IMG/VR virus record: IMGVR_UViG_3300036790_000213
Span: 1 to 38,706 of that record
Length of the DNA: 38,706 nucleotides
DNA from: a virus
Strand: one strand, 5' to 3'
Made by a program: the position numbers and the translations under genes. Below the pieces are notes generated by a model. It saw only the letters and a list, made by a program, of their open reading frames with translations. It had not been told where the DNA came from and did not search any database. Within the stretch, counting starts at the first letter, position 1. Every line of letters starts with the position of its first letter. Shown one piece after another: positions 1 to 38,406 of this stretch.

Positions 1-31
1 CTCCCTGCACTGTATCTATGCTGGCTTGACG

Positions 32-139
32 GGCGTTCGGCTCTCACTTGGCCGGCGTTCCGCGCTCACTTGGACGCCTGATAATGGGAGGGTATCCCTC
101 CTTGCGATGTCATCTCGCACCTGTTCCGCACTCACTCTG
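32..139. repeat. Iteron-like direct repeats
   Basis: GGCGTTCGGCTCTCACTTGG (32-51) and GGCGTTCCGCGCTCACTTGG (54-73) match at 18 of 20 positions with a 22-bp period. A diverged third copy, GTTCCGCACTCACT, lies at 123-136. The 22-bp period equals that of the iterons at 38313-38406, although the sequences are only loosely alike. They could be accessory initiator or regulator sites. Confidence 0.55.
87..101. promoter_or_regulatory. Perfect inverted repeat GGAGGG-TAT-CCCTCC
   Basis: Arms 87-92 and 96-101 are perfectly complementary around TAT. It resembles the GGGG/CCCC sites at 176-199 and 38570-38593 in having G-run and C-run arms about a TAT centre, and may bind the same protein. No function can be read directly. 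Confidence 0.45.
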
Positions 140-175
140 CCCCCAATTCGCTGGGATAACCACAATGATTACCGC

Positions 176-199
176 TTGTGGGGTATGCCCCCATTTTAT
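176..199 (+). promoter_or_regulatory. Operator-like dyad (GGGG-TATG-CCCC), left copy
   Basis: TTGTGGGGTATGCCCCCA followed by TTTTAT ends three bases before the -35 element of the left promoter. It matches 21 of 24 positions with the reverse complement of 38570-38593. Two of the three differences are in the central tetranucleotide, which reads TATG here and CATA there. Placement beside a promoter fits an activator or repressor site. Confidence 0.5.
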
Positions 200-201
200 C
201 G

Positions 202-229
202 TTGACACGCGAACGAGTATTGCTATACC
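202..229 (+). promoter_or_regulatory. Promoter of the left accessory operon
   Basis: TTGACA (202-207), a 16-nt spacer and TATACC (224-229) look like a sigma-70-type promoter pointing at the genes from 284 onward. The operator-like site at 176-199 lies just upstream. The transcript would carry a leader of roughly 45 nt containing the hairpin and ribosome site at 251-275. Confidence 0.6.
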
Positions 230-250
230 TTCATAGCTGTAATCGTTATT

Positions 251-275
251 TGGGCAATGCCCAGCCCCGAAAGGA
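251..275 (+). promoter_or_regulatory. Structured ribosome-binding leader, copy 1
   Basis: Hairpin TGGGC-AAT-GCCCA (251-263) runs into the block CCCAGCCCCGAAAGGA (260-275), which ends exactly 8 nt before the ATG at 284. The block and the spacing are identical at 1261-1276 and 1710-1725. It fixes the start of the ATPase gene at 284 rather than at the ATG at 257. Confidence 0.7.
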
Positions 276-283
276 CGTATCCC

Positions 284-838
284 ATGAACACGCTCTTTGC
301 ACCTTCCGCGTCATCCACTGACATCCTTACTGAGAAATACCGCCCAACGCGCATTGCCGACTTTGTTGGCCTTGATAAGCCACGCCGCATCGCCGCGAAG
401 ATGGCATCCACTCCACCTCGCACCGCTGGCCTGTTGTTCATCGGCGAGACGGGCATCGGTAAGACAACCCTCGCTCTCGCTATCGCCGAAGAGATGCCGG
501 CCGAGCTTCACCACATCGCATCGCAGGATTGCAACGTTGAGCGTATACGGCAGGTCGTGAGCAATTGCCATTACGTTCCGTGTGCCGGCTGCAAGCGTCA
601 CATTGTGTTGATCGATGAAGCGGACCAGATGAGCAACGCCGCGCAGCTCTACATGCTATCTGTATTGGACAGCACCGCACCGGCGCCCGACACACTTTTC
701 ATCCTCACGGCGAACAGCACCGACAAGCTACAGGATCGCCTCATCTCACGCTGCATCCCTGTACAGTTCTCATCTCACGCTGCATCCCTGTACAGTTCTC
801 ATCTCACGGTCAATCCACCGACACCGCGGCACTCCTAG
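284..838 (+). CDS. Clamp-loader-like AAA+ ATPase, C-terminus frameshifted
   Basis: A 184-residue product resembling the ATPase domain of clamp-loader small subunits (RFC/DnaX type). Visible motifs are an N-terminal TEKYRPTRIADFVG signature, Walker A GETGIGKTT (about 54-62), Walker B HIVLIDEADQ (106-115), a sensor-1 LTANSTDKL segment, and the SRC arginine-finger motif (155-157) typical of clamp loaders. A 29-bp tandem duplication at 741-798 shifts the frame after about residue 162 and gives an unrelated tail ending at 838. Collapsing one unit restores a 218-residue protein ending at 969. The family loads sliding clamps; here it might adapt the host replisome or act in partition. Whether the shortened product works is unknown. 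The start is set by the leader at 251-275. Confidence 0.8.
   Translation: MNTLFAPSASSTDILTEKYRPTRIADFVGLDKPRRIAAKMASTPPRTAGLLFIGETGIGKTTLALAIAEEMPAELHHIASQDCNVERIRQVVSNCHYVPCAGCKRHIVLIDEADQMSNAAQLYMLSVLDSTAPAPDTLFILTANSTDKLQDRLISRCIPVQFSSHAASLYSSHLTVNPPTPRHS
741..808 (+). repeat. 29-bp tandem duplication that frameshifts the AAA+ gene
   Basis: The unit beginning TCATCTCACGCTGCATCCCT occurs at 741-769 and again, identically, at 770-798. A partial third copy, TCATCTCACG, lies at 799-808. A 29-bp insertion is not a multiple of three and changes the reading frame. The 10-bp flanking repeat is the kind of sequence that promotes slipped-strand duplication or deletion, so the change may be reversible. 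An assembly or polymerase artefact is possible. Confidence 0.9.
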
Positions 839-969
839 AGCGCGTCTGGGATGCAGAAGCGCCGCAAACGGCCAAGCGTCCCAACTTCGCCCGCATCGTC
901 AAAGAGGCCTGCAACAACGTTCGCGCCTCACTCATGCAGCTCCAAACCGAACTTCTACTCGCAGACTGA
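802..969 (+). pseudogene. Displaced C-terminal segment of the AAA+ ATPase
   Basis: Read in the frame starting at TCT 802, this encodes SSHGQSTDTAALLERVWDAE and continues to LQTELLLAD followed by TGA at 967-969. It contains helix-forming, lid-like sequence and joins smoothly to RCIPVQF of the upstream gene if one 29-bp unit is removed. In the window as given it has no start codon or ribosome site of its own and is probably untranslated unless frameshifting or slippage occurs. Confidence 0.75.
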
Positions 970-1000
970 ATTAAAAACTAATTTATTAGGAGATAGCGCA

Positions 1001-1219
1001 ATGATGAACAATCAGACATTCAAATCGATAAAGATAGGTGACAAGGTACGCAAGGACGGAACCAAAACGATACGCACGGTACAAGCTGTGAACGATTACG
1101 GCATGTTTCGCACCGTGATCCTCGTGATGAAGGGTGGGCAAATAAACGCAATACAAAACACCTCTACGGCTACGACGATTCCCAGCTTCTATCACAACTG
1201 GCACATCGTCGAAGACTAG
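1001..1219 (+). CDS. Small hypothetical protein (72 aa)
   Basis: The start ATG at 1001 follows TTAGGAGATAGCGCA, a good ribosome site. The same frame is open further upstream to 851, but that part overlaps the displaced ATPase tail and lacks a ribosome site, so I reject it. The product begins MMNNQTFKSIKIGDKVRKDG and looks like a compact beta-rich (SH3/KOW-like) fold with a basic first half. No family recognised. It sits between the broken ATPase and the 34-residue membrane peptide in the left operon. Confidence 0.65.
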   Translation: MMNNQTFKSIKIGDKVRKDGTKTIRTVQAVNDYGMFRTVILVMKGGQINAIQNTSTATTIPSFYHNWHIVED

Positions 1220-1249
1220 ATTTCAAACCCCTGGTGCAATATCAACCCC

Positions 1250-1276
1250 TGGGCATCGCGCCCAGCCCCGAAAGGA
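1250..1276 (+). promoter_or_regulatory. Structured ribosome-binding leader, copy 2
   Basis: Stem TGGGC (1250-1254), loop ATCGC, stem GCCCA (1260-1264), extendable by one C-G pair, runs directly into CCCAGCCCCGAAAGGA (1261-1276). The block ends 8 nt before the ATG at 1285, as in copies 1 and 3. Its presence is the main evidence that the very short frame at 1285 is a real gene. Confidence 0.7.
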
Positions 1277-1284
1277 ACCACACC

Positions 1285-1389
1285 ATGAATCTCTTCCTCG
1301 CAATCATCTTCGCTCCGTCTATCCTCGCGGCTGTATCCATGATCGGCCTGTACGTTCGCCCGCTCCTCACAGACAAAACCAATCTCTAA
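1285..1389 (+). CDS. 34-residue single-pass membrane peptide
   Basis: The frame ATG 1285 to TAA 1389 begins MNLFLAIIFAPSILAAVSMI and continues GLYVRPLLTDKTNL. Roughly residues 3-24 form one strongly hydrophobic helix, followed by a short polar tail. It carries the same leader as the ATPase and the diguanylate cyclase, which argues that it is translated. Candidate roles are a small membrane regulator or a holin-like peptide; the sequence does not decide. No homolog recognised. Confidence 0.6.
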   Translation: MNLFLAIIFAPSILAAVSMIGLYVRPLLTDKTNL

Positions 1390-1424
1390 TCGACGTTTGC
1401 CCTATCAAAGGAAAGAGGAATTTC

Positions 1425-1688
1425 ATGATTGACCTTACTTCGCACCAACTCGATGGCCTCATCTACGCCCTGGAAATAGCTGCGGACGATCAGGAAAACT
1501 ATTTTGCTACTGTCAACCCGATAATCGATTACACATCCGAAGATCTGAGAACAAAAGCAACATCTTTCAGAAACATTGCGGAGTCGGTGCAGGCCCTAAG
1601 CCAACCTGCTCTCCGCATGCGATTTGAAGAGCTGGCCGACACCGCAGATATGCTAGCGACTTCTTCCGAAGTGGCCGAAGCAATCTAA
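1425..1688 (+). CDS. Small acidic helical protein (87 aa)
   Basis: The start at 1425 is supported by AAAGGAAAGAGG about 8 nt upstream. The product begins MIDLTSHQLDGLIYALEIAA, is rich in Asp, Glu and Ala, and appears entirely alpha-helical with a C-terminal ELADTADMLATSSEVAEAI helix. No family recognised. It is followed within 15 nt by the hairpin leader of the diguanylate cyclase gene, so it belongs to the same transcript. Confidence 0.7.
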   Translation: MIDLTSHQLDGLIYALEIAADDQENYFATVNPIIDYTSEDLRTKATSFRNIAESVQALSQPALRMRFEELADTADMLATSSEVAEAI

Positions 1689-1700
1689 CCGCACCACCCT

Positions 1701-1725
1701 TGGGTTTTACCCAGCCCCGAAAGGA
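1701..1725 (+). promoter_or_regulatory. Structured ribosome-binding leader, copy 3
   Basis: Hairpin TGGGT-TTT-ACCCA (1701-1713) followed by CCCAGCCCCGAAAGGA (1710-1725), 8 nt from the ATG at 1734. Relative to copies 1 and 2 the pair next to the loop is T-A instead of C-G, a compensatory change that keeps the stem paired. This supports a conserved RNA structure and not just a copied sequence. Confidence 0.7.
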
Positions 1726-1733
1726 CGTACAGC

Positions 1734-2366
1734 ATGTTTCTAACTCTTCCCGCCGCACCACCCCAACCCACCACCTTGCAGGACGCGCACCAACTCATCG
1801 CCACGATGCGCGCCGAGCTCGAGCAGCTCCAAGCCCTCGCGCGTCTCGATCCACTCACCGGCATCGCCAACCGCCGCGCCTTCGACGAACGGCTCGCCCA
1901 GGCCTTCGCGCACGCACGCCGCACGCGCACCACGCTGGCCGTGGCCGTCATCGATCTGGACAACTTCAAACGCCGCAACGATACCTACGGCCACGCCGCC
2001 GGCGATCGCTGCCTCAGTCTCCTCGCCGCGCAGCTCGCGGCCCACTCGCGTGCCGGCGACGTCGTCGCGCGGATCGGCGGCGAAGAGTTCGCCGTCATCA
2101 TGCCAGGCACCGGCCAGGTCGACGGCGCGGAGCTCTGCCGGCGCATCGCCTTCACCCTCCGCCAGGGATGCGCCGCTGGCGGTCCTCTCACCTTCTCCTG
2201 CGGCGTGGCGGATCTGGACGCCACCATGCTGCATCCCTCCACCATCCTCGATCGCGCCGACCGCGCCATGTACCATGCCAAGCAGTCCGGCAAAGATCGC
2301 GTGTGCATCCACCAAACCACCTTCAACCGCGCCGCAGCGTTCTTCGGCAGACTAGGGATTCGCTAA
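1734..2366 (+). CDS. Standalone GGDEF diguanylate cyclase
   Basis: A 210-residue protein predicted to make cyclic di-GMP from two GTP. After a short helical N-terminus (about 15-35) comes a complete GGDEF domain: DPLTGIANRRAFDERL (39-54), the metal/nucleotide segment VIDLDNFKRRNDTYGHAAGD (72-91), GGEEF at 115-119, and C-terminal DRADRAMYHAKQSGKDRV. An inhibitory-site motif RxxD (RAGD, 106-109) lies exactly five residues before GGEEF, so product inhibition is expected. There is no sensor domain or membrane segment, so it should be cytosolic. The hairpin leader at 1701-1725 controls its translation, and its stop overlaps the next gene (TAATG). Such enzymes are common in bacteria but unexpected among phage or partition genes; it may be a captured host gene. 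Confidence 0.93.
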   Translation: MFLTLPAAPPQPTTLQDAHQLIATMRAELEQLQALARLDPLTGIANRRAFDERLAQAFAHARRTRTTLAVAVIDLDNFKRRNDTYGHAAGDRCLSLLAAQLAAHSRAGDVVARIGGEEFAVIMPGTGQVDGAELCRRIAFTLRQGCAAGGPLTFSCGVADLDATMLHPSTILDRADRAMYHAKQSGKDRVCIHQTTFNRAAAFFGRLGIR

Positions 2367-2818
2367 TGGCCCTCTTCAGAATGACAGTCACGGCCACCGC
2401 TTCCACCACGTACATCGCCGAAGTCGAGGCACCGGACGAAGAAACCGCCGAGGCCATGGCAGCCTCGCGCGAGATCTTCGGTAAAAATTCCTCCGAGGAC
2501 TTTCAAGTCGACGCAAAAGATTGCGCGTTCGACTTTGAGACTGAGCAGCTCACAGACGAATGCCCAGACTGCGGAGAATCGCACCTGATTATGCACGACG
2601 ATCTGGCTGTGTGCTATTGCCAAGCGTTTGGCTTCAATCCTTATGCGGGTACTCCCGAAAATCCTAACGGGCGCGCTCCCCTTCATCCTCATCTCATCAT
2701 CGATGGTGTTTGCACACCTGAGCCCTGGTGGTATGAAGATCAAGACTATTGCGCCGCCTGCGGCGCTAAGATCGAAGCCGAAGAGAAAGCCGGGGAGGCC
2801 TTCCGCAATGCCCAATGA
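2366..2818 (+). CDS. Zinc-ribbon-like hypothetical protein (150 aa)
   Basis: The ATG at 2366 overlaps the stop of the diguanylate cyclase gene (TAATG), indicating translational coupling. The frame stays open upstream to 1700, but that part is only the alternative frame of the cyclase gene. The N-terminal 45 residues (MALFRMTVTATASTTYIAEV and onward) suggest a beta strand followed by an acidic helix. Two Cys pairs, CPDCG and CAACG, lie on either side of a middle segment with CYC and look like zinc-binding knuckles. No named family recognised. Probably cytosolic. Confidence 0.7.
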   Translation: MALFRMTVTATASTTYIAEVEAPDEETAEAMAASREIFGKNSSEDFQVDAKDCAFDFETEQLTDECPDCGESHLIMHDDLAVCYCQAFGFNPYAGTPENPNGRAPLHPHLIIDGVCTPEPWWYEDQDYCAACGAKIEAEEKAGEAFRNAQ

Positions 2819-2990
2819 CGAGCTAACCAAAGTGGAGTATCTGGGCGATGGCCTGTACGCTGAATGCACGGGCGACATGATCCGTCTCTTCGCCTCGAAC
2901 GGTGTCACCACCACCAACGAGGTCTATCTTGATCCAGCTGTGCTGCAGGCCTTCCTCAACTACGTCAAAACGATCCGGGAAAGAAGTTGA
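2808..2990 (+). CDS. Small hypothetical protein (60 aa)
   Basis: The ATG at 2808 follows GGGGAGG (2792-2798) and overlaps the end of the preceding gene by 11 nt. The product begins MPNDELTKVEYLGDGLYAEC and ends LNYVKTIRERS. The segment LGDGLYAECTGDMIRLFASNG looks like a small beta sheet, followed by a helix beginning at LDPAVLQAFL. Short proteins of this shape are frequent in phage accessory operons. Function unknown. Confidence 0.7.
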   Translation: MPNDELTKVEYLGDGLYAECTGDMIRLFASNGVTTTNEVYLDPAVLQAFLNYVKTIRERS

Positions 2991-3151
2991 AGTTGACTAC
3001 ACCGCCTAAACCCGCGCCGCAAAACTACTCACCCGTTGGCCCTCGCGTCATGCTGGGCGACAAGGCGATCTGCACGGCCGTCAGTAACACGATGGCCAAG
3101 CGGATCGCCGCCGCGCTCAACCATCACACACCCGATCGCCGCGGCATTTAG
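2987..3151 (+). CDS. Small phage-type protein (54 aa, TTG start)
   Basis: The frame starts at TTG 2987 (an in-frame TTG also occurs at 2993) and overlaps the preceding stop by 3 nt; GGGA at 2977-2980 could be its ribosome site. The product is about 54 residues and contains VMLGDKAICTAVSNTMAKRI followed by a short helix and DRRGI at the end. The pattern 'K-A-I-C-T-A-V-S-N-T-M-A-K-R-I-A-A-A-L-N' is typical of short orphan phage proteins of unknown function. The stop at 3149-3151 overlaps the end of the convergent minus-strand gene by 4 bp, so the two opposing operons abut here with no visible terminator. Confidence 0.6.
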   Translation: MKLTTPPKPAPQNYSPVGPRVMLGDKAICTAVSNTMAKRIAAALNHHTPDRRGI

Positions 3152-3525
3152 ATTTGATCGCTGCGCCTATTCCAATTCTCATAAAATTTCTTCACCACCT
3201 CAGCGGATTCGTCGTAGACGGCCATTGCGTTGCCATGCTCGTCACATCCAAGGTGGTAGCTCACCGATTCACCGATGGTCATATCTGCCGCACAGATTCC
3301 GCTTTTTCCCTTTTGCCGCAAGTCGGTCAAGACATACCAATCAGCCCCACGATTCAGATAGGTTGTGCTCGGTCCCACTGGAACTCCATCTCTCACCCGG
3401 ATTCTCTTGGTTGAGTCTAGTGGCATTCCCGCCGAAAACGTTACTCTATAGGCCGTCTTCCCCAGCCCCGCTATGTACCGCGCTCGGCGCAGAGCCTTGC
3501 GCATTTGTTTGGTCGGCTCCCTCAT
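3148..3525 (-). CDS. Hypothetical protein (125 aa), end of early operon
   Basis: The start is supported by GGAGGAGCAAA upstream. The product has a basic N-terminus (MREPTKQMRKALRRARY), a central beta-rich segment and an acidic C-terminal helix with SAEVVKKFYENWN. No recognised domain. It is the last gene of the leftward early operon and ends 4 bp into the convergent plus-strand operon. Confidence 0.7.
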   Translation of the reverse strand: MREPTKQMRKALRRARYIAGLGKTAYRVTFSAGMPLDSTKRIRVRDGVPVGPSTTYLNRGADWYVLTDLRQKGKSGICAADMTIGESVSYHLGCDEHGNAMAVYDESAEVVKKFYENWNRRSDQI

Positions 3526-36266: not shown

Positions 36267-36938
36267 ATGTCTCTACAAATCACCATCGCAAATCAAAAAG
36301 GCGGCTGCGGCAAGACGACGACAGCCATGAACCTGGCCGGCGTCTTCACCAAAATTGGCTACAGCGTGCTGGTCATCGACGCCGATCCGCAGAGGAGTGC
36401 CTTGCGCTGGTCTCGCGCCCAGGGAGAAGGCAACCTTCCTTTCCGCGTCGCAGATCCCGCGTCCGCAGAGGCCTCTCTGCAAGACAACTACGAGCTGGTG
36501 TTTGTGGACTGTCCTCCTGGCATGGAAGGAGATGCCCGCGCGGGAAGACAAGTGCGTAACTTCATCGCTCGATCGGATGGCATCCTCGTGCCGCTGATGC
36601 CATCCTCGCTGGACTATTCGGCAGCCACGTCGTTTGTGAACTTTCTGCGCGAGACCAAAGCTCCGGAGACGAAGACGGCCATCGTCCTCAACGCCGTGCA
36701 GCACAACCGGCTGGGTGCCCAGGCCGCCGCCGCCGCCGCCGCGCTCTTCGCCTCGATCCCCGGCGCCGTCGTTCTGCCCACTACGATCGGCCGCCGCACG
36801 CTTATCACCGAAGTCTCGGGTTCCGGCAAGACCATTCTGGACTATGCCGGTCCTCGTCACCTTGCAACCGCTGAATACACCAATCTAGCAAAGGACATCC
36901 TCCAATGGCTCACCAACGCGCCTCCATCGTCGCTGTAG
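36267..36938 (+). CDS. parA: ParA partition ATPase
   Basis: A 223-residue Walker-type partition ATPase of the small (type Ib-like) kind, with no N-terminal DNA-binding domain. The deviant Walker A is KGGCGKTTT (11-19, with the signature Lys11), switch I lies in VIDADPQRSA (37-46), and Walker B is ELVFVDCPPG (76-85). ATP-bound ParA dimers coat the nucleoid and move plasmid copies apart under control of a centromere-binding partner. The next gene (RHH) overlaps it by 34 bp and fits that partner, and the palindrome just upstream fits the centromere or operator. The absence of a ribosome site suggests a leaderless start. Confidence 0.95.
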   Translation: MSLQITIANQKGGCGKTTTAMNLAGVFTKIGYSVLVIDADPQRSALRWSRAQGEGNLPFRVADPASAEASLQDNYELVFVDCPPGMEGDARAGRQVRNFIARSDGILVPLMPSSLDYSAATSFVNFLRETKAPETKTAIVLNAVQHNRLGAQAAAAAAALFASIPGAVVLPTTIGRRTLITEVSGSGKTILDYAGPRHLATAEYTNLAKDILQWLTNAPPSSL

Positions 36939-37186
36939 ACCTCCACGACCTCAAAACCACCTTACCCACCCCGCGCCCTGTAGAAATCGTTCCTGCGGCC
37001 CCTGAGCCTCAGGAATCGCGTTCTCTGGCGATCCCCGAGCAGGATTATCTGATTCCGTTCAGTTGTCGGTTGCCGATGAGCCTCCACCAGAAGCTCGACG
37101 AGCTGAAGCGCGAGCGAGGCCTGGACAAGACCGAAGTCGTCAAAGCCGCCCTCGCTGCGCATTTGAAGAAACTGGGGAAGGGGTAG
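36905..37186 (+). CDS. RHH centromere-binding partner of ParA (ParB-like)
   Basis: A 93-residue protein with an extended N-terminal half (Pro-rich, likely flexible, a usual place for ParA-stimulating residues) and a C-terminal ribbon-helix-helix domain: strand IPFSCRLPMS, helix LHQKLDELKRERG, helix DKTEVVKAALAAHLKKL. It is not a ParB/HTH protein; it fits the small RHH partners (ParG/omega-like in role) of type Ib systems. Its start (ribosome site AAGGA at 36891-36895) lies inside parA, so the two proteins are coupled. It probably binds the ATACAG boxes at 36204-36256 and represses the divergent promoters there. Confidence 0.8.
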   Translation: MAHQRASIVAVDLHDLKTTLPTPRPVEIVPAAPEPQESRSLAIPEQDYLIPFSCRLPMSLHQKLDELKRERGLDKTEVVKAALAAHLKKLGKG

Positions 37187-37236
37187 GTTTCGCGACGCTC
37201 GCATGACACGTTTGGTTGCCTTGATCGTTAATTTTT

Positions 37237-38277
37237 ATGTGTTGTAGCCGACATTATGGAGTAATATCTCGACGAGTTACCAGAGGTGAGCGTTTGCGTA
37301 GAGATCCAAGCAAAAGTAGCAACTATGGCAGCGAGGCGAAGATCGCACGAGCAAAACTTTTTGAGGATATGTTGACCCAGCGGAAGCATCGTAATGCTGG
37401 GGAGGCTCGTGAAATCGTGCAGATGTCGACTATGTTGGTTCTCTCTGGACTTCCGTACAAACCGACTGATCAGACGGAGATTGTGAGGACCGCAAGGACG
37501 GCGCGCGGCTTTGAACGCACCACATTTTATGCACTAGGGAAGGATGCGAACGGCGACCGCGTGCCGATGGCATTTGGTTCTGATCGCACCTTTCTTCATT
37601 GGTGCATTGACCTGGCCATCAAGCGAAATGATCCGTTTGTGCCGCTTCCTATGGCACGATCTTTTTTTGACGATCTTAGTCTTTCGGTGGGCGGAAAAAG
37701 TTATATTCTCCTGCGCGAGTCACTTAATCGGCTTTCTGGACTAGCGGTTGTGGTGGAGGGCGGTACGCGTCGAAATATAACGACGATCATCGCTCATGCG
37801 CAGCTTCCAAAGGGCGCGAAATGCTCTGGGATCGACGATGGGCCTCCAGGTGTACGCTTTGGGGCCGATTTTTTTGCAGAGTTCAGTAAGCGTCATGTGC
37901 CATTCTTGTGGCCGTTACTTCGGGCTCTCCATAAAAAGCCCCAGATGCAGGACTTCGTTCTGTACCTGCATCGTCGGTGTAGTGATGCGAGATCGACTTT
38001 GGTGATTCCCTGGCCTATGTTGCGTGAGCAGCTTTGGCAAGCCGACAGCAATACGCGCCGGATGAGGGCACGAATGGCTACGGCGATCGAGATGTTCAAG
38101 GTGGCATGGCCTGAATTGAACGCTATAGCGCGATCGGAAGGACTAGAAATAGGGCCTCCCCTCAAGGGTCTCCATTTTATCCCCTTCGTCACGGCGGAAA
38201 CGAAGGGCGTCGAAGACACTGATCTGGGTGTATTGCGTAAAAGAAAAAGAAATTGGGGTTTTTCTTCAGGCGAATAG
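37237..38277 (+). CDS. repA: RepA-type plasmid replication initiator
   Basis: A 346-residue protein matching the 'plasmid encoded RepA' (RPA, PF04796-type) family in outline: MLVLSGLPYKPTDQTEIVRT and the following ARTARGFERTTFYALGK, then a winged-helix-like core with FLHWCIDLAIKRNDPFVPLP, DDLSLSVGGKSYILLRESLN and RLSGLAVVVEGG, then FVLYLHRRC and VIPWPMLREQLWQ. It binds iterons and opens the origin for the host replisome. Start ATG 37237 has no strong ribosome site; an in-frame TTG at 37294 follows AGAGGTGAGCG and could be the true start. The four iterons lie immediately after the gene. Codon use looks less GC-biased than the virion genes. Confidence 0.85.
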   Translation: MCCSRHYGVISRRVTRGERLRRDPSKSSNYGSEAKIARAKLFEDMLTQRKHRNAGEAREIVQMSTMLVLSGLPYKPTDQTEIVRTARTARGFERTTFYALGKDANGDRVPMAFGSDRTFLHWCIDLAIKRNDPFVPLPMARSFFDDLSLSVGGKSYILLRESLNRLSGLAVVVEGGTRRNITTIIAHAQLPKGAKCSGIDDGPPGVRFGADFFAEFSKRHVPFLWPLLRALHKKPQMQDFVLYLHRRCSDARSTLVIPWPMLREQLWQADSNTRRMRARMATAIEMFKVAWPELNAIARSEGLEIGPPLKGLHFIPFVTAETKGVEDTDLGVLRKRKRNWGFSSGE

Positions 38278-38312
38278 TCTTTACTGGTTTTTCCTTCATT
38301 TTCACAGGGTTC
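38278..38312 (+). other. T-rich segment before the iterons (possible unwinding region)
   Basis: The 35 bp after the repA stop are T-rich (TTTACTGGTTTTTCCTTCAT and so on), directly before the iteron array and, with the A-rich end of repA, the most AT-rich run of the neighbourhood. This is where a DNA-unwinding element would be expected, but nothing beyond composition supports it. Confidence 0.35.
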
Positions 38313-38406
38313 GTACGCTTCATCGTACTTCCGGGTACGCTTCATCGTACTTCCGGGTACGCTTCATCGTACTTCCGGGTACGCTTCATCGTACTTCCGG
38401 GTACGC
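38313..38406 (+). repeat. Iteron array (four perfect 22-bp repeats) of the replication origin
   Basis: Four contiguous identical 22-bp units starting GTACGCTTCATCGTACTTCC, at 38313, 38335, 38357 and 38379, plus a truncated copy GTACGC at 38401. A period of 22 bp is about two helical turns, so RepA molecules would sit on one face. Immediate position after repA is the usual place for iterons of this class. There are no spacers, so it is not a CRISPR array. Confidence 0.9.

Follow-up and report, generated by a model that had tools for sequence, protein, structure and literature searches.

A hairpin leader repeated at the start codons of selected genes in a phage operon and its possible role in translation

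Three genes at the left end of the window share a leader

The stretch of DNA analysed here (the window) is a 38.7-kb phage record from IMG/VR. At its left end, genes for a clamp-loader-type AAA ATPase (positions 284 to 838), a 34-residue membrane peptide (1285 to 1389) and a GGDEF protein (1734 to 2366) lie on the plus strand and are probably transcribed as one polycistronic operon. A preliminary description had placed the same block 8 nt before each of these starts, and a pattern search agreed: the 16-mer CCCAGCCCCGAAAGGA is present in three exact plus-strand copies (260 to 275, 1261 to 1276 and 1710 to 1725). Allowing up to three mismatches gave no further match in the window, against 0.49 expected, and three matches were reached in 1 of 100 shuffles. 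The block comprises the last four bases of the 3′ arm of a hairpin with a 5-bp stem, the junction GCC, CC-GAAA-GG and the Shine–Dalgarno (SD) sequence AAAGGA. The hairpins have the sequences described earlier and share the form TGGGY-loop-RCCCA; they are TGGGC-AAT-GCCCA (251 to 263), TGGGC-ATCGC-GCCCA (1250 to 1264) and TGGGT-TTT-ACCCA (1701 to 1713), with the loops AAT, ATCGC and TTT. The C-G to T-A change that keeps the stem in the third copy is real.

The leader is selective, because two ORFs of the same operon and strand (1001 to 1219, with a plain SD, and 1425 to 1688) have ordinary ribosome-binding sites (RBSs) and no leader. Among the genes behind it, the 34-residue peptide proved to be a real gene: a 33-residue relative with 15 of 32 residues identical has its own leader in phage G004. 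The third gene, proposed to be a diguanylate cyclase, does encode a GGDEF protein. The proposed ATPase is of the clamp-loader AAA type, with the qualification that its frame is cut short in the window. Here an exact 29-bp tandem duplication (740 to 808, 2.4 copies) shifts the frame and removes a C-terminal part present in relatives; it may be genuine or may stem from faulty assembly. In both the window and L073 (2765 to 3391), the phage operon includes a stand-alone GGDEF protein, and GGDEF-like remnants in G001 and G007 are broken in appearance.

Upstream of the first leader, a promoter-like TTGACA ... TACCTT (202 to 231, plus strand) can be discerned, for which sigma-70 promoter scoring made no call. 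TTGAC lies upstream of the ATPase gene in 14 of 17 orthologues. Among the leaders called class I below, it precedes 8 of the 9 ATPase copies and a single one of the remaining 18, and its place is upstream of the leader repeat, not inside it. Degenerate, iteron-like direct repeats with 11-bp spacing (25 to 160 in the window, and at the left ends of L167 and L169) come immediately before the ATPase operon's promoter-like box; in this region lies one end of most contigs of the group.

Rfam models gave no match at gathering score in the window or at the loci of eight relatives, and one chance-level match elsewhere. A search of the open PMC literature, in which subscription papers are mostly not included, found no description of the leader. 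Three simple readings were rejected. An upstream leader peptide starting at the NTG of NTGGGC would be thrown out of frame by loops of 4 to 5 nt in 5 of 27 copies, one copy has CTG, and no SD was seen ahead of it. An intrinsic terminator is contradicted by the lack of a T-run after the leader hairpins, and a terminator scan of positions 1 to 3200 found none there. A pseudoknot or ligand-binding loop does not fit a loop that is free in both sequence and length.

The leader in close relatives

The ATPase led to five related IMG/VR phage records, and the leader to a further three. When 2.9 million viral contigs were scanned with the hairpin-plus-block pattern, only these eight relatives matched (nine stretches); the window's own record was possibly left out of the viral-contig scans. 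At up to two mismatches, class I comprises 27 copies in nine genomes (17 in six records and 10 in three), with two to four copies per genome. All 27 lie in sense orientation in the left-end operon with a start codon next, 6 to 10 nt from the SD, and none occurs elsewhere in the nine genomes, where the reversed pattern gave no match at the same threshold. A covariance model built from the 27 copies recovered them at E < 1e-13 from 675 kb, the next match having an E of 0.14.

The leader is nearly identical throughout these phages, while their terminases are 74% identical to that of the window in one phage and 31 to 33% in the other seven. The genes behind it belong to about ten unrelated families, not all of them present in every phage: the ATPase (9 copies), ArdC (4), GGDEF proteins (4), a 78/80-residue protein (2), 33/34-residue membrane peptides (2), 49/51-residue membrane proteins (2) and single small genes (4), the names being given partly by similarity. 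The loop measures 3 nt in 22 copies, 4 nt in 3 and 5 nt in 2. By the MAFFT count, helix 1 is 100% paired and four of its five pairs are invariant; this count treats as paired two copies (G001 1032 and G007 888) in which an extra C creates a C.C mismatch or a slipped register. The sole double change is that of the third window copy. The 27 copies alone are therefore no proof of pairing, since the stem hardly varies.

Outside this group, the full leader pattern had two matches in genome contigs, neither in a leader-like context, and hence the leader is not a host one in that collection. The exact block without the hairpin was found in 15 stretches of viral contigs, none with a TGGG hairpin by eye, and we take these as chance; several precede start codons because the block contains an SD. 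In isolated phages, all ATPase matches were below 60% identity (29 to 35% among the matches listed). The best terminase match there was 28%, to Tunturiibacter phage Tunturi_3, which as a sequence match only hints at an Acidobacteriota host.

The hairpin in distant relatives

To the covariation in the stem, distant relatives were more informative. An alignment-based search of viral contigs yielded ATPases about 50 to 56% identical to those of the window group; an ATPase alignment search that returned generic clamp loaders was left out. Downstream of the promoter-like box and ahead of the ATPase start codon, the distant phages carry AGGGC-ATG-GCCCT (L084), CGGGA-AGTTA-TCCCG (L183), CGGGC-CCA-GCCCG (G020), CGGG-TTCG-CCCG (G017 and G018) or TGGG-TTCG-CCCA (G016). 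In the 75 nt before the start, and with outer pairing not required, GGG-N3-9-CCC was present at this orthologous site, that of the first window hairpin, in 15 of 17 phages, and the flanking pair was Watson–Crick in all 15 (U-A in 10, C-G in 4 and A-U in 1). As background, a GGG/CCC hairpin with an outer pair was found before 14 of 513 other ORFs of 13 phages, a control set that includes spurious ORFs, and in 879 of 40,000 random windows. On an ATPase tree of 14 rows, four changes are needed to account for four labels including 'none', which means at least three outer-pair changes among the paired types.

ArdC provides a second orthologous site, with the hairpin in 7 of 9 cases, one of them the slipped G001 copy. 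Two copies within G028 differ by a swap of the inner pair (CGGGC/GCCCG versus CGGGA/TCCCG). Copy numbers are four in G017, three in G016, and two each in G018 and G028, and the CGGGTTCGCCCG form matched only G016 to G018 among viral contigs. In total, 41 leaders from 16 phages have a hairpin, a short junction and an SD in common, with free loops. The outer pair is UA in 28, CG in 12 and AU in 1; the inner pair is CG in 27, AU in 2 and UA in 1, mismatched in 2 and absent in 9. The first three bases 3′ of the stem read GCA in 23, TAC in 11, GCC in 3, CAC in 3 and GAA in 1. These numbers exclude the class II leaders described below and chance-level scan matches (two of which had an SD and a start, one belonging to a 14-codon ORF), as well as a mis-registered MAFFT alignment of the distant hairpins; for distant leaders at sites other than those of the ATPase and ArdC, the scans required an outer pair. 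One type of stem and junction is mostly common to all copies of a genome and differs between genomes, G016 being among those that mix stem types.

Pair-preserving changes have thus arisen at the outer and inner pairs in independent lineages of distant phages, which answers the covariation test called for in the preliminary description; few pairs vary, and GGG/CCC is invariant. The hairpin is conserved, holds one position and orientation, precedes selected genes only and changes in a way that preserves pairing, and its structure is well supported. The expectation that relatives keep the stem, and not the block alone, was borne out in part. The hairpin stands at the ATPase site in 15 of 17 phages; the other two, L184 and L186, have no leader in the 75 nt before the ATPase start, and G029 (L175, about 256 to 290) keeps an RBS block, CTAACCCGCA-ACCCGAAAGGATCTCC, before a start without any hairpin. 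This hairpin-less site is where relatives carry a class II hairpin.

The class II leader, GGGCGGC-GCGTSA-GCCGCCC, was found in five copies in four phages before other genes of the same operon (L073 3401; L075 2266 and 2619; L079 3390; L068 1578, on the reversed strand). Its stem is different and longer and directly abuts the SD; the G005 stem has an A.C mismatch. Unrelated hairpins that abut an SD occur in G006 (36111) and in L184 and L186 (about 5700).

Folding of the leader

Ensemble folding of 38 leaders in context gave a mean hairpin-1 probability of 0.79, with 0.45 as the unpaired fraction of the SD. The latter was unchanged (0.44) when the hairpin's 5′ arm was blocked from pairing in silico. 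When downstream segments were folded alone, a small second stem that includes SD bases began exactly 3 bases after hairpin 1 in 13 of 17. Compared with shuffled spacers, which form a second stem nearly as well, the combined Fisher p was 0.008 over 17 non-independent rows, only one of which was below 0.05 by itself. The GAAA-capped mini-stem earlier suggested to hold the SD thus fared unevenly: each of the three class I segments that were folded is predicted to form it, and distant phages repeatedly show small second stems, but the single shuffling tests are mostly non-significant and predicted SD accessibility is indifferent to hairpin 1. Sequestration of the SD by the modelled CC(GAAA)GG mini-stem is at most a possible step. 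In G028, before ArdC (L174, about 19204, minus strand), CGGGA-TTTT-TCCCG is followed by CACCCC-CGGA-GGGGTG, a second stem of 6 bp that would hold the whole SD.

Discussion

Start-associated repeats have been known in several phage clusters since 2011, with a mechanism lacking. The nearest known kind are the SAS and ESAS elements of actinobacteriophages, in the accounts given of Cluster K mycobacteriophages (PMC3203893, PMC12699233, PMC11373665) and Microbacterium cluster EF (PMC7302621). In Cluster K a genome has 11 to 19 copies, of which about half are accompanied by an imperfect inverted repeat of 17 bp, and a role of SAS in translation initiation is suggested. Like these, the present leader is an unusually conserved repeat that is preceded by an inverted repeat and marks the RBS of some phage genes from different families, and as SAS lie a few base pairs upstream of starts in several families, so do all 27 class I copies before about ten families. 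The 13-bp SAS consensus GGGATAGGAGCCC, by contrast, matched the window once at up to two deviations (22722, off the leaders), where 0.86 matches are expected. Our phages have one to four copies per genome, and hairpins of 4 to 6 bp (class I arms, 5 bp) instead of 17-bp arms. Pairing is kept here by compensating changes, whereas for the first-described ESAS the authors judged RNA pairing of the arms unlikely (PMC3203893). Finally, ESAS is described as containing a SigA-like promoter (PMC11373665), while the TTGAC box studied here stands upstream of the repeat and is mostly confined to the ATPase copies. Because sequence, copy number and arm length differ, we do not file the leader as SAS.

Short dyads with a variable centre, kept between otherwise different phages, form a second parallel: cluster EG has inverted repeats 14 to 22 bp upstream of starts (PMC7302621), and the dyads of Cluster O measure 17 bp, their 3-bp centre being free (PMC4351075). 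The EG repeats, like ours, stand before genes at one genome end. Cluster O sites also occur within genes and without orientation, unlike the leader, and in these accounts spacing is fixed in both clusters and an SD-linked block is described for neither.

The translational operators of MS2 coat protein and T4 regA, where the RBS of one or more genes, or an RNA hairpin, is held by a protein, would work alike, with the binding protein putative in our case. The loop sequence is important in the MS2 operator; in the leaders it is free.

We give about even credence to a model in which the repeat is a start-associated RNA leader through which a trans-acting factor sets the translation of selected genes. 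On a polycistronic early transcript, only selected genes would carry the GGG/CCC hairpin, followed by a junction of roughly three bases left unpaired ([N]AC or GCA), a C-rich stretch that could pair weakly with the SD, and the start codon. A putative factor, probably phage-encoded, would recognise stem and junction and thereby alter how readily ribosomes reach the SD. Translation of the clamp-loader ATPase, ArdC anti-restriction protein, diguanylate cyclase and tiny membrane proteins might in this way be set together. Recognition by such a factor, control of translation and its direction are inferred. RNA action at translation is favoured by the single orientation, start proximity, selectivity and free loop length, and by the usual restriction of the promoter-like box to the first copy. 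That the copies of a genome mostly share one stem type would follow if a single factor read them all. More tentatively, a phage-encoded RNA-binding regulator of a kind not yet recognised may read the GGG/CCC hairpin together with the AC junction ahead of the SD and govern a translational regulon that links replication (clamp loader), anti-restriction (ArdC), small membrane proteins and c-di-GMP signalling; stem and junction would then have changed in concert across a genome's copies as the regulator itself changed. If real, such a regulator would define a phage translational regulon.

Our confidence in the trans-acting model stays near one half because G029 and class II favour a looser, cis-acting role. 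The leader could be a passive RBS stabiliser or insulator that travels with accessory genes as an expression cassette without any regulator, acting by 5′ protection, by blocking upstream pairing or as a processing mark. That class II and unrelated SD-abutting hairpins occupy the same place, and that loops are free, agrees with this possible though somewhat unlikely reading. Yet GGG/CCC and the junction are kept across terminases of about 31% identity, beyond the needs of a mere stem, blocking the stem in silico leaves SD accessibility unaltered, and neighbouring genes manage without a leader. The survival of stem core and junction through great divergence, together with the genome-wide stem shifts, leads us to favour a factor over a passive stem.

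An improbable explanation is that the conserved element acts as DNA, a phage repressor or partition-type protein binding the double-stranded TGGGC-N3-GCCCA as an operator or promoter-linked dyad. The dyad is perfect in most copies, the phage encodes a ribbon–helix–helix-type (RHH) protein, an analogous argument is in print for the ESAS repeats (PMC3203893), and similar dyads are described in Cluster O (PMC4351075) and EG (PMC7302621) phages. However, GGG and CCC are separated by anything from 4 to 7 nt in the leaders, and such variable loop length is more easily reconciled with an RNA hairpin than with a dyad in DNA. Moreover, each of the 27 class I copies lies close to a start, and all have the same orientation, the dyad occurs at only four places outside leaders in the nine class I genomes, and 17 of the 18 non-ATPase copies have no TTGAC box. 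It is less probable still, and in our view very doubtful, that the repeat is a recently spread mark of cassette borders, a recombination joint that hitch-hikes without a regulatory role. The ten or so unrelated families behind the leader and their variable presence are compatible with this, but pair-preserving divergence and retention at two orthologous genes indicate long-term selection on structure. Since pairing is kept by compensating changes, RNA-level action of the leader is directly testable in these phages.

At the other end of the window (36267 to 38406), genes for ParA, the RHH protein and a 346-residue protein are followed by 4.3 exact 22-bp repeats (38313 to 38406). The 346-residue protein had no Pfam or PHROG match and is possibly a replication initiator. 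As this region resembles a plasmid replicon, the phage may be a phage-plasmid.
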